Part shown: piece by piece, positions 29,922-33,405 of the stretch
Layout of the letters: each line of letters begins with the position of its first letter
Numbering within the stretch: the stretch's first letter is position 1
Assembly: GCA_028876065.1 (NCBI GenBank)
Contig: JAGWTI010000027.1
Span: 1 to 37,568, forward strand
Reading direction: 5' to 3'
DNA: 37,568 bases
Source of the DNA: Nitrospirota bacterium
GTDB taxonomy: Bacteria; Nitrospirota; Nitrospiria; Nitrospirales; Nitrospiraceae
Notes under the pieces: generated by a model
Told to the model about the DNA's origin: nothing
What the model saw: the letters and a program-made list of their open reading frames with translations, nothing else
The model's database searches: none
Program-made: the position numbers and the translations under genes

Positions 29922-31166
29922 ATGTCTGACTTTCATCAGAACGGCGTGGTGGCGGTCTTGCACCGGCTGGGGCAGCTGAACCTGGAGCAGTTGGAGGCGG
30001 AACTGCAACGGCACGCGACGGCCAACCCGATCGCCCTGGTGCTGCCGTCGCTGTACTCCGAACTGGAACGTCCGGCGCTGAAAGGCATCATCGAGCATCT
30101 GAAACAGGTGACCTATGTCAGTGAAGTTGTGGTCGCGCTGGGGCAGGCGTCGGCCCTGGAGTTTCGGCGCGCAAAGGAATACTTCAAGGTCTTGCCGCAG
30201 GACGTCCGCCTCGTGTGGGTGGATGGCCCCCGTATCCAGGACATCCTCAAAGGCCTCGTCGAGCACGAAATTGACATCGGTCTTCCGGGGAAAGGGCAGT
30301 CGTGCTGGATCGCCTTCGGGTATGTGCTGTCGCGTCGCCGGAGCAACGTCATTGTCCTGCACGACTGCGATATTCTGAGCTACAACCGTGAGTACCTGGC
30401 CCGGCTCTGCTACCCCATCGCCAACCCGAACCTCGGCTATGAGTTCTGCAAGGGCTATTACAGCCGCGTGACGGACCGTCTGCACGGCCGGGTCACCCGT
30501 CTTCTCATCACGCCGCTGCTCCGCAGCCTCCAGCAGTTGGTGGGAACGCAACCGCTGCTGACGTTCCTCGACGGGTTCCGCTATCCGCTGGCCGGCGAAT
30601 TCGCCATGGTCAAGGATTTGGCCTGGATCAACCGGATTCCCGGCGACTGGGGGCTGGAGGTCGGGGTCCTGGCGGAAGTCTATCGCAATTGCGCGTTGCG
30701 TCGGATCTGCCAGGTGGACATCGCGGACGCCTACGAGCACAAGCATCAGACCCTGTCGGCGGACAACCCGGAGGCGGGGCTTTACAAGATGTGCGTAGAC
30801 ATCACCAAGTCCCTGCTGCGGAACCTGGCGAGCGAGGGTGTGGTGCTGTCGGAGGAACGGCTCAAGACCCTGCGCGCGACCTATCTCCAAGCCGCTCAGG
30901 AAGCCATCCGGCGGTATGAAGACGACGCCGCCATCAACAGCCTGAAATTCGACCGGCACGAGGAGCGGACCGCGGTCGAGGTCTTCTTGAAGGGCATTAA
31001 GCTGGCGTCGGAGGTCTTTCTGAAGGACCCGCTCGGCGTGCCGATGATCTCGAATTGGAGCCGCGTGGCCGCCGCCGTGCCCGATATTTTCGGCCGTCTC
31101 ATCGAGGCGGTCGAAGACGATCACGAATGGGATCCCACGGCCGCCGACGGTCCTCCCCGGCCATGA
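29922..31166 (+). CDS. GpgS-like (GT81-type) glycosyltransferase
   Basis: The product has 414 residues with a GT-A fold. Features are ANPIALVLPSLYSELERPAL, VSEVVVALGQAS, LPGKGQSCWIAFGYVL, the metal-binding region IVLHDCDI at about 145-151 in place of a DXD, GFRYPLAGEFAM, RIPGDWGLEVGVLAEVYRN and DAYEHKHQTLSADNP. This order is that of glucosyl-3-phosphoglycerate synthases, which make the precursor of glucosylglycerate from NDP-glucose and 3-phosphoglycerate. The protein is longer than the usual 320-340 residues, mainly at the C-terminus. Glucosylglycerate synthesis is therefore the likely but unproven role. GGAGG at 29901-29905 is rather far; AGAAG lies closer. The stop overlaps the next start by four bases. 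Confidence 0.7.
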   Translation: MSDFHQNGVVAVLHRLGQLNLEQLEAELQRHATANPIALVLPSLYSELERPALKGIIEHLKQVTYVSEVVVALGQASALEFRRAKEYFKVLPQDVRLVWVDGPRIQDILKGLVEHEIDIGLPGKGQSCWIAFGYVLSRRRSNVIVLHDCDILSYNREYLARLCYPIANPNLGYEFCKGYYSRVTDRLHGRVTRLLITPLLRSLQQLVGTQPLLTFLDGFRYPLAGEFAMVKDLAWINRIPGDWGLEVGVLAEVYRNCALRRICQVDIADAYEHKHQTLSADNPEAGLYKMCVDITKSLLRNLASEGVVLSEERLKTLRATYLQAAQEAIRRYEDDAAINSLKFDRHEERTAVEVFLKGIKLASEVFLKDPLGVPMISNWSRVAAAVPDIFGRLIEAVEDDHEWDPTAADGPPRP

Positions 31167-32431
31167 GCCCCGCAGCGACGCCACTGACCCAGGAGACCGA
31201 GGCCAGCGTCCGAGCGATCGGCGAGGCCGACGTGCTGGTCGGCATTCCCAGCTTCAACAACGCCGGCACGATCGGGCACGTGGTCCGGGCCGTGAGCGCC
31301 GGGCTGGCCAAATACTTTCCCGCCGCCCGCGCGGTCCTGGTCAATTCGGACGGGGGATCGTCGGATGGAACCCCCGACGTGGTGGCTCGGGCGGGCGTGG
31401 ACCTCGGCGCCATGCTCATCAGCGACCGGCAGAGCCCCTTGCACAAGATCATCACGCCCTACCAGGGGATTCCCGGCAAGGGCAGCGCGTTCCGGACCAT
31501 TTTTGAAATTGCCCGGCGGGTGAACGCCAAGGCCTGCGCGGTCGTGGACTCGGACCTGCGCAGCATCACGCCGGAGTGGGTCGAATTGCTGATCCGGCCC
31601 CTGCTGGAGGAGGGTTACGACTATGTGGCCCCCTATTACTTGCGGCACAAGTATGACGGCACCATCACCAACAGCATCGCCTATCCGCTCACGCGGGCCC
31701 TGTACGGACAGCGCATCCGCCAGCCGATCGGCGGCGATTTCGGGTTCTCCGGGCGGCTGGCCGAGCACTATCTTGACCAGCAGGTCTGGGAGTCGGAGGT
31801 GGCGCGGTTCGGCATCGACATCTGGATGACCACGGAGGCGATCGCCAGCGGGGCGCGGGTCTGCCAGAGCTTTCTGGGGGCCAAGATCCACAATCCCAAG
31901 GACCCGGCCGCGGACCTTTCGGCGATGCTGGTCCAGGTCGTGGGCGCCCTCTTCGCCCTCATGGAGGAGCATCACCGGGTCTGGGCCATCATGGACGGAT
32001 CGAACCAGGTCAAACTGTACGGCTTTCAGTACGAAGTGGGGGTCGAGCCCGTGCATGTCAACGTGGACCGCATGATCGGCCATTTCCGACAGGGCTTGGC
32101 CGACCTGGAACCGATCTGGCGGCAGATGCTGGCGATCGAAACGATGGAGGGGCTGTGGCCGCTGCACGACTGCCCGCTTCAGGCGTTCCGCATTCCCGAC
32201 GAGTTGTGGGCGCGCCTGGTCTACGACGCGGCGATCTCGTATCACCGTCGGGTTCTGCCGCGCGAACACCTTCTCAAGGCGCTCACTCCCCTCTATCTGG
32301 GCCGCACGGCGACTTTCGTCCTGGAGACCCAAGGACTGACGTCCGCCGAGGCCGAAGGCCGGATCGAGACGGTCTGCGAGGCGTTCGAGCGACAAAAGCC
32401 GTACCTGCTGGAACGGTGGGGCAAGCCGTGA
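31163..32431 (+). CDS. GT2-like glycosyltransferase
   Basis: The product has 422 residues. The start is the ATG of the ATGA overlap with the upstream stop; no ribosome binding site is needed if translation is coupled. The N-terminal GT-A domain has DVLVGIPSFNNAGTIGHVV, AVLVNSDGGSSDGTPDVV, IPGKGSAFRTIFEIA and CAVVDSDLRS, with the DSD metal site near residue 129. QPIGGDFGFSGRLAEHYLDQ and FGIDIWMTTEAIASGARVCQ are typical of the acceptor side. The C-terminal 150 residues are helical. The substrate is unknown; coupling to the GpgS-like gene suggests a role in the same glycoside pathway or in extending it. Confidence 0.8.
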   Translation: MSPAATPLTQETEASVRAIGEADVLVGIPSFNNAGTIGHVVRAVSAGLAKYFPAARAVLVNSDGGSSDGTPDVVARAGVDLGAMLISDRQSPLHKIITPYQGIPGKGSAFRTIFEIARRVNAKACAVVDSDLRSITPEWVELLIRPLLEEGYDYVAPYYLRHKYDGTITNSIAYPLTRALYGQRIRQPIGGDFGFSGRLAEHYLDQQVWESEVARFGIDIWMTTEAIASGARVCQSFLGAKIHNPKDPAADLSAMLVQVVGALFALMEEHHRVWAIMDGSNQVKLYGFQYEVGVEPVHVNVDRMIGHFRQGLADLEPIWRQMLAIETMEGLWPLHDCPLQAFRIPDELWARLVYDAAISYHRRVLPREHLLKALTPLYLGRTATFVLETQGLTSAEAEGRIETVCEAFERQKPYLLERWGKP

Positions 32432-32467: not shown

Positions 32468-32506
32468 CCGGCGGCTCAATGGCTTAACCCGACAATAAGC
32501 CGCCGG
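32468..32506. repeat. Inverted repeat unit, first copy
   Basis: CCGGCGGCT at 32468-32476 pairs with AGCCGCCGG at 32498-32506 across a 21-nt loop. The unit is followed by CCCAAGCGAAAG, the beginning of a second small hairpin that is not complete here. A second unit lies exactly 165 bp downstream. Confidence 0.8.
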
Positions 32507-32576
32507 CCCAAGCGAAAGAACGAAGCCTGCTGGAGGCAAAAAGCTTCTCCGCCCGCATCTGATCGAAGTGCCGGGC

Positions 32577-32600
32577 TCAAGCGAAGCTTGGTATGAAACG
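32577..32600 (+). repeat. Small hairpin, variant CAAGC-GAA-GCTTG
   Basis: CAAGC-GAA-GCTTG followed by GTATG matches CAACC-GAA-GGTTG-GTATG at 32674-32691, with both members of the stem pair changed so that pairing is kept. Confidence 0.7.
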
Positions 32601-32632
32601 CAATAGAGCAAAGACCAAACAAAGGTGTTTCT

Positions 32633-32691
32633 CCGGCGGCTCAATCGCATAAACCGATAGTAAGCCGCCGGCCCAACCGAAGGTTGGTATG
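32633..32691 (+). repeat. Inverted repeat unit, second copy, with small hairpin
   Basis: CCGGCGGCT at 32633-32641 pairs with AGCCGCCGG at 32663-32671 (21-nt loop; the loop sequence is related to that of the first copy). It is followed at once by CCAACC-GAA-GGTTGG, which ends next to the ribosome binding site GGAGGGA (32691-32697) of the channel-like gene. The hairpins may therefore influence translation of that gene. Confidence 0.8.
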
Positions 32692-32700
32692 GAGGGAGTC

Positions 32701-33405
32701 ATGAACGACTTCTGGACACAGGCCCTGGTAGGACCCCTGGAAACGCTGGGGAAAAAGCTGTTGGCGCTGCTGCCCAACGTGCTGGCCATGGTCATCATCC
32801 TGGCGGTCGGGTTGGCGGCGGCCTGGGCGCTGGGCTGTCTGGTGGAGCGGCTGTTGCGCGTGGTCGGCCTGGACCATCTGGCGGACCGGCTGGGCGTGAA
32901 TGCCGCCCTGGCGCGGGGCGGCGTGAAGACCGACCCCTCCCGCCTCGCCGGGCGCGCGGTCCATTGGGTCGTCCTGATCGTGGCCGCGATGGCCGGGTTG
33001 GGCGCGCTGAATCTCCAGCCGGTCAATCAGTTCGCGCAGTCCCTGCTGGCCTACGTTCCGCACCTGTTGACGGCCGCCGTGATCCTGGCCGTGGGGTACC
33101 TGTTGTCGAACTTCAGCTCCCAGGCGGTGCTGATCGCCGCGGTCAACGCCAGCCTGCCGCCAGCCCGGCTGGTGGCGGCCTGCTCGCGCTGGGGTGTGCA
33201 ACTGGTGGCGGTGGCGATGGCGCTCGAACAACTGGGCATCGCGCAACACATCGTCGTGGTGGGGTTCGGCCTCGCATTCGGCGGCGTGGTGCTGGCGGCG
33301 GCCTTGGCGTTCGGGTTGGGGGCCCGCGATCTGGCGAAGGAGTTTCTGGAACGACAGTTCGGAAGAACCGAGGGACAGAACAAGGACGACCTGACCCATC
33401 TGTAG
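32701..33405 (+). CDS. Small mechanosensitive-channel-like membrane protein (TM_helix type)
   Basis: The product has 234 residues if started at 32701, right after GGAGGGA (32691-32697). An ATG at 32689 would put the ribosome binding site inside the gene. Five or so membrane segments are seen, with the Gly/Ala-rich helices of the conserved TM_helix repeat: LPNVLAMVIILAVGLAAAWA, then YVPHLLTAAVILAVGYLLSN, and GFGLAFGGVVLAAALAFGLG followed by ARDLAKEFLE. These resemble the pore-lining helices of MscS-like proteins, but the beta domain of MscS is absent. Its place among compatible-solute genes suggests a role in osmotic release or membrane tension sensing. Confidence 0.78.
   Translation: MNDFWTQALVGPLETLGKKLLALLPNVLAMVIILAVGLAAAWALGCLVERLLRVVGLDHLADRLGVNAALARGGVKTDPSRLAGRAVHWVVLIVAAMAGLGALNLQPVNQFAQSLLAYVPHLLTAAVILAVGYLLSNFSSQAVLIAAVNASLPPARLVAACSRWGVQLVAVAMALEQLGIAQHIVVVGFGLAFGGVVLAAALAFGLGARDLAKEFLERQFGRTEGQNKDDLTHL

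Follow-up and report, generated by a model that had tools for sequence, protein, structure and literature searches.

A REP-like two-hairpin repeat of the Nitrospira family with exact junctions at tRNA ends, Shine-Dalgarno sequences and start codons

This study found that positions 32468-32691 of the window (the whole 37,568-nucleotide stretch of Nitrospirota DNA analysed here) consist of three head-to-tail units of a dispersed repeat, in the order B-A-B. We lean, at somewhat better than even probability, towards the view that these units (B1, A and B2) belong to a non-autonomous, REP-like mobile repeat of the Nitrospira family that was moved as folded single-stranded DNA. The unit would move, or would have moved, as a single strand folded into its own hairpins and, by analogy with REPs and the ends of IS200/IS605 elements, would be joined next to a short C-rich target, which on the bottom strand reads ...C^ATACC and often CC^A. 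The enzyme would be one that profiles for Y1, Y2 and reverse transcriptase miss in several high-copy genomes. Some copies would also be carried inside a larger palindrome, and in the window the unit would be a passenger whose place in the leader of a channel gene is incidental.

The array and the anatomy of the unit

Direct reading confirmed the two hairpins that a sequence-only reading had described: the 9-bp stems CCGGCGGCT (32468-32476) with AGCCGCCGG (32498-32506), and the same pair at 32633-32641 and 32663-32671, lie 165 bp apart and each encloses a 21-nt loop. Inverted repeats of 9 bp with 3-40-nt loops occur at least twice in only 5 of 1000 dinucleotide shuffles of the 271-bp stretch. 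The compensatory change in the small hairpin also stood, since CAAGC-GAA-GCTTG-GTATG at 32578-32595 and CAACC-GAA-GGTTG-GTATG at 32674-32691 differ by one swapped pair. Missed in that reading was a unit of a second subtype, A, between the two B copies, which share 85% identity over 59 nt.

All features of the region lie on the forward strand. The array is preceded by an open reading frame with a putative start (31055-32431) that encodes a family-2 glycosyltransferase (PF00535). In unit B1 (32468-32516, or to 32529 with the stretch behind it) the terminal hairpin CAAGCGAA is truncated, and the 3' part, AGAACGAAGCCTG, is apparently the 5' arm of the next unit, by comparison with the L180 array. 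Unit A (32530-32595) has the full 66-nt core, CTGGAGG...CAAGC-GAA-GCTTG-GTATG, with a partly broken main stem, and scores 70.7 bits with R1, a covariance model built from an alignment of 18 A units. Unit B2 (32614-32691; 32.6 bits) has its mini-hairpin CAACC-GAA-GGTTG at 32674-32686 and finishes with GTAT^G. The 3' end of the array meets the Shine-Dalgarno-like GGAGGGA (32691-32697) at zero spacing, as the sequence-only reading had described. The following gene (32701-33405) encodes a conserved mechanosensitive-channel TM helix (PF05552); it likely starts at the ATG at 32701, and the ATG of B2 itself (32689-32691) is in frame with it. The suggested effect of the hairpins on translation was not supported: the predicted structure of the leader joins the Shine-Dalgarno region partly to early coding bases and not to the hairpins of B2. 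Overall, the stability of the leader RNA is not unusual (z -1.29; 23 of 200 shuffles fold equally well).

Across the family, a unit of about 66-81 nt comprises a main stem, a C-GAA-G mini-hairpin and the end GGTAT^G. It starts with (G)AAGAATCTAAGCC or CTGGAGG and ends in GGTAT, and its 3' boundary is constant at GGTAT^G. Position-wise conservation among 78 distinct units gives the order of the 66-nt core as CTGGAGG, a linker, an 8-bp main stem, a short joint, a 5-bp mini-hairpin and GGTATG; in the same units the main-stem loop has 11 nt around TGATCGA and the mini-hairpin loop is mostly GAA or AAA. Hairpins of the C-GAA-G type are exceptionally stable as DNA. Subtype B, judged from six aligned copies, has a longer loop and ends as A does, and the L180 array has an 81-bp period and a 5' arm resembling GAAGAATCTAAGCCTA. 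At two loci (L139 and L203), a full unit is followed by a lone added sub-unit, about 24 nt long and GCGGTTCAACCGAAGGTTGGTATG-like; the terminal mini-hairpin may thus duplicate by itself.

Distribution and pairing of the copies

The proposal that these hairpins belong to a family of dispersed, structured, REP-like repeats was upheld by further copies with paired changes. In the genome that holds the window, a 241-nt query region gave 44 blastn matches at E<=10, and the covariance model, a check that the sequence-only reading had suggested together with a genome search, found 47 places at E<=1, and 41 also passed E<=1e-3. R1 matches at E<=1e-4 occur in 93 of 147 genomes of the same family; the best E value is below 1e-10 in 63 of these and weak (1e-10 to 1e-4) in the remaining 30. 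Copies per family genome range from none to at least 35, with several genomes at 35 or more; these are lower bounds, with at most 35 candidates scored per genome for the family, 13 for the phylum and 8 for the palindrome search described below. In the phylum sample, 71 of 395 genomes have a match at E<=1e-6, of which 67 belong to the same family, three (one match each) to another family of the order and one to a distant family. Genome G031 has at least four copies with one identical score (93.5 bits), which suggests recent spread, short of proof. In the loci read, the copies lie between genes, and the arrays run head-to-tail; at L193, units occur on both strands. By eye, different species of the genus retain arrays at seemingly identical sites; a large part of the set may therefore be old.

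The site of the window was compared with its relatives. In G019, a genome of the same genus, the two flanking genes have adjacent matches (83% and 81% identity), which are separated by 131 bp as against 290 bp in the window. What R1 finds in the G019 spacer is no more than a decayed relic (8.6 bits; E 0.036 in 1.1 kb), which ends at the equivalent position ahead of the start codon, so the spacer does not qualify as a clean empty site; either the array is younger in its own genome, or it has decayed in G019. Most relatives found with the channel protein bear the names Nitrospira, Nitrospiraceae or Nitrospirae. Sixty-three loci around their genes (393,695 bases), of which five (L090-L094) are named for other groups and three (L039, L048 and L056) extend less than 200 bp upstream, gave no R1 match at E<=0.1. 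These loci serve as a specificity control and show that the repeat is absent from those neighbourhoods.

Pairing within the units exceeds what shuffled alignments produce. In the alignment of 18 A units, 94.9% of cells are paired, and 30 cells are changed on both sides compared with 7.3 in shuffles, none of 500 reaching 30. The covariation score of 0.390 was likewise reached by none of 500 shuffles; both-side changes occur in 7 of 13 pairs, which 7 of 500 shuffles reach, and sliding the partner abolishes most of the covariation signal. Thus, the changes to which the sequence-only reading had pointed do go beyond chance, and selection, which it had concluded from them, has an alternative in template switching. 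Quasipalindrome template switching, in which one arm is copied from the other, would also keep stems perfect. Whole main stems differ en bloc (CCGCTCGC, CCGCCCGC, CCGCCGCG, CCGGCCCC and CCCGGCCC, each with its complement). In the first unit of a tRNA-Ser array (L006, L193 and L200), both main-stem arms were seen changed en bloc between related genomes at what is apparently the same position, which suggests replacement of the unit and not stepwise compensation.

Wobble pairs were counted in 97 of the 119 distinct units described below, namely A units left once duplicate 66-mers and units paired at fewer than 6 of the 8 main-stem positions had been removed. The main stem and mini-hairpin have 757 and 466 Watson-Crick cells among 776 and 485, a paired share raised by the dropping of poorly paired units. 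On the leader strand of the channel gene, 5 of the 1261 cells are G.T (3 + 2) and 16 are A.C (8 + 8), half of the latter at one single mini-hairpin pair; on the opposite strand, which reads out of tRNA 3' ends, the counts are swapped to 16 G.T and 5 A.C. An RNA in the channel-gene direction should tolerate G.T more than A.C, and this was not seen, which weakens the leader-RNA reading on that strand; since the counts swap on the other, the test covers one strand only. Wobble is rare on both strands (at most 1.3% on either), which favours pairing kept at the DNA level, through selection or templated correction.

Junctions and the larger palindrome

The constant 3' boundary meets its neighbours at a few precise kinds of site. 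Junctions were classified for 119 distinct units at E<=1e-3, from loci that were best-scoring, hand-picked or fetched by the palindrome query and hence not random; B2 of the window, whose nhmmer score falls short of that threshold, was left out. The apex of a larger palindrome, followed by its right arm, was met by 60 units, another unit by 19, and other sequence by 9. Thirteen units end exactly at a tRNA 3' end, in antisense, with the CCA in common with the tRNA, and all of these junctions read CCA-TACC or are one base off. Two units lie exactly at a tRNA 5' end, at tRNA-Ser and in sense. Eight directly abut a Shine-Dalgarno-like sequence that is followed by a start codon, and in another eight the ATG or GTG of the unit is in frame with an open reading frame of at least 100 codons, a class that is weak taken alone in GC-rich DNA. 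For the 27 units of the window's own genome, the counts are palindrome 8, another unit 5, tRNA 3' end 3, tRNA 5' end 1, Shine-Dalgarno 2, in frame 4 and other 4. After a tail of GGTAT, GGTGT, GGTTT or GATAT, GG comes next in 37 of 47 non-palindrome units. Five of six downstream proteins tested match Pfam (NADH dehydrogenase 30/49 kDa, radical SAM with HemN_C, carbamoyltransferase, pyruvate-ferredoxin oxidoreductase and ZapA); the sixth, at L021, has no Pfam match. Given zero spacing at sites as diverse as these, we infer that target choice at joining explains the junctions better than selection for function.

In the class of other junctions, four loci (L009, L112, L118 and L186) resemble tRNA 3' sequence by eye. 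At L009 and L118, apparent 3' fragments of tRNA-Glu and tRNA-Pro directly adjoin the units and the rest of the tRNA is absent, which looks by eye as if a tRNA end had been copied or left behind.

The larger palindrome was found both empty and filled. A query with its filled form (arms plus unit) matched in some part in 97 of 98 family genomes; either the unit or the arms may account for the match. On one contig of genome G072, 8 of 30 loci could be read at the apex, most of the others being anchored on other sequence. Five empty palindromes (L278, L279, L280, L292 and L295) read CAACGTAC-(6-8 nt)-GTACG. In three filled copies (L273-L275), CAACGTAC, or a variant, is followed by unit...GGTAT-GTACC. 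In other genomes, regions matched by the right arm only have a clean short apex in 9 of 10 cases, L259 being degenerate, and of ten weaker full-length matches, seven of them from genus g10, nine have a diverged unit with a CACACGAAGTGCGG-like end at the apex. A guessed pattern for the empty palindrome found none in the window's own genome; the empty apices were seen in relatives. Empty and filled apices together establish the unit as a cargo module in the apex of the palindrome that also exists alone. The palindrome itself, of about 125 bp (TAGCAGGATGCTGAAAAAG ... CTTTTTGAGCATCCTG), often starts on TAG or TAA, apparently the stop codon of the preceding gene (L253-L262, L273-L275, L278-L280, L292 and L295). 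By its appearance it would be a MITE with a TA-type target, possibly IS630-like.

Mobilising enzyme, rival explanations and known systems

A classical REP system, spread by a RAYT or IS200-type Y1 transposase, would fit the short palindromes in arrays. The window's own genome has two Y1_Tnp matches (one 143-aa IS200-type TnpA, plus a fragment where a contig ends); at E<=1e-6 the profile is matched in 96 of 147 family genomes, including the unit-rich G012 and G020, and at one Y1 locus (L163) a weak unit-like stretch (E between 1e-3 and 0.1) lies beside a tRNA. However, none of 31 Y1 loci (the 29 best-scoring and the two of the own genome) has a unit at E<=1e-3, the stem has no GT[AG]G tag beside it, and five genomes with 13 to at least 35 units (G004, G019, G031, G024 and G029) gave no Y1 match at E<=1e-6, absence from draft genomes not being proof. 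The REP-associated transposase anticipated by the sequence-only reading was thus not borne out, and a classical REP system appears distinctly unlikely. Reverse transcription primed by tRNA, in which the UGG of the unit pairs with the CCA of the tRNA and the cDNA is joined to the tRNA 3' end, would explain the form of the 13 tRNA 3' junctions; it leaves the Shine-Dalgarno, tRNA 5' and palindrome junctions unexplained, no RVT_1 match at E<=1e-5 was found in eight genomes (G000, G004, G019, G031, G024, G029, G020 and G015), and it is highly improbable.

A cis-acting RNA, that is, a leader or trailer structure acting on the neighbouring gene or tRNA through translation, stability or processing, is suggested by sense-oriented units that abut Shine-Dalgarno sequences and start codons, by co-varying stems and, on the strand out of tRNA 3' ends, by the excess of G.T over A.C, both rare. 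Against it stand the leader strand, where G.T is not in excess, the units that are antisense at tRNA 3' ends yet sense at a tRNA 5' end, and the half of the examined units, in a biased set, that lie inside the palindrome. No curated Rfam model matches, the channel-relative loci lack R1 matches and the same-genus spacer has only a weak relic; an RNA element, which the sequence-only reading had offered, and with it a dedicated leader role were not supported and are now unlikely. Nucleoid, gyrase and recombination-site roles have been proposed for BIMEs, and a host DNA site of this kind, spread by gene conversion and with stems perfected by template switching, would agree with the sequence conservation over many genera and with stems replaced en bloc. 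Yet the number of matches per genome varies within the family from none to at least 35, and exact gene-boundary junctions are left unexplained, which makes a host site improbable. Against the mobile repeat itself, it can be said that conservation across genera could also mean a host function, and that the Y1, Y2 and RVT_1 profiles found no enzyme. With these points weighed, the mobile, REP-like repeat is still the reading that we prefer.

Several other candidates for the mobiliser were rejected. An IS91-type Y2 protein was matched in only 2 of 147 genomes, of which G091 has no R1 match and G098 has three, and RVT_1 was matched in 5 of 25 chosen genomes and in none of four from the window's genus. 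Inspection by eye of 25 listed clusters of stop-to-stop frames near units, several of which are overlapping loci of one place, revealed no recognised transposase as a recurrent neighbour. Phages, plasmids and viral contigs had no match to one filled palindrome or one exact 20-mer. In the window's own genome, a serine-recombinase gene lies beside an IS200-type tnpA (L031:93-1145 and 1341-1772) and adjoins what by eye is a tRNA-Asn gene.

Among known systems, GTAG REPs with RAYT/TnpA-REP are alike as dispersed hairpin repeats thought, in the available part of PMC6006769, to be processed as single strands, and the Nitrospira unit is also short, palindromic and present in many copies. It differs in that no GT[AG]G stands 5' to the hairpin foot in 78 distinct units and no Y1 gene is flanked by units in 31 Y1 loci (E<=1e-3). 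CGTC-tagged REPs are many-copy short palindromes described, in the part of PMC3733652 available, as having no dedicated transposase; the same part lists five phyla, Nitrospirota not among them, and calls REPs with no known transposase an open question. This CGTC group is the closest precedent for a REP without a transposase. Compared with that description, the Nitrospira unit has no CGTC tag, has two hairpins and a length of 66-81 nt, forms head-to-tail arrays in place of HH dimers in the arrays read, and has the exact tRNA, Shine-Dalgarno and start-codon junctions as its own feature. The ends of IS200/IS605 elements, as far as PMC6006769 was available, are alike in working only (a subterminal hairpin, with the end itself fixed next to a short target); the unit is far shorter, with no transposase gene inside or beside those examined. 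The larger palindrome resembles MITEs such as RUP, NEMIS and Nezha (PMC3733652, in part) in its inverted arms and in being too short for a transposase gene, whereas the unit itself has no terminal inverted repeats. The available part of RepRanger (PMC12306157) names Nitrospira moscoviensis only in a count table, and no description of the Nitrospira repeat was found in the literature searched.

Integron attC sites are defined by R and L core boxes (RYYYAAC/GTTRRRY) and by use by an integrase. With neither a GTAG nor a CGTC tag and no transposase association, the Nitrospira unit is REP-like and not a classical REP, a variant with precise tRNA, Shine-Dalgarno and start-codon junctions as its unusual feature. 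More tentatively, and at well under even probability, it could represent a novel class of hairpin DNA elements whose precise joining beside CC^A-like targets is the work of an enzyme family so far not connected with REP-like repeats; tRNA CCA ends, Shine-Dalgarno sequences and start codons would stay intact on its entry, its CCA- and start-codon-restoring end being an adaptation for harmless insertion.

In sum, the repeat offers a sharp system, with fixed boundaries and with empty and filled sites in one genome, and the high-copy genomes that have no Y1, Y2 or reverse-transcriptase match are places in which to seek the enzyme. It is also a warning that co-varying hairpins upstream of a gene need not be a regulatory RNA.
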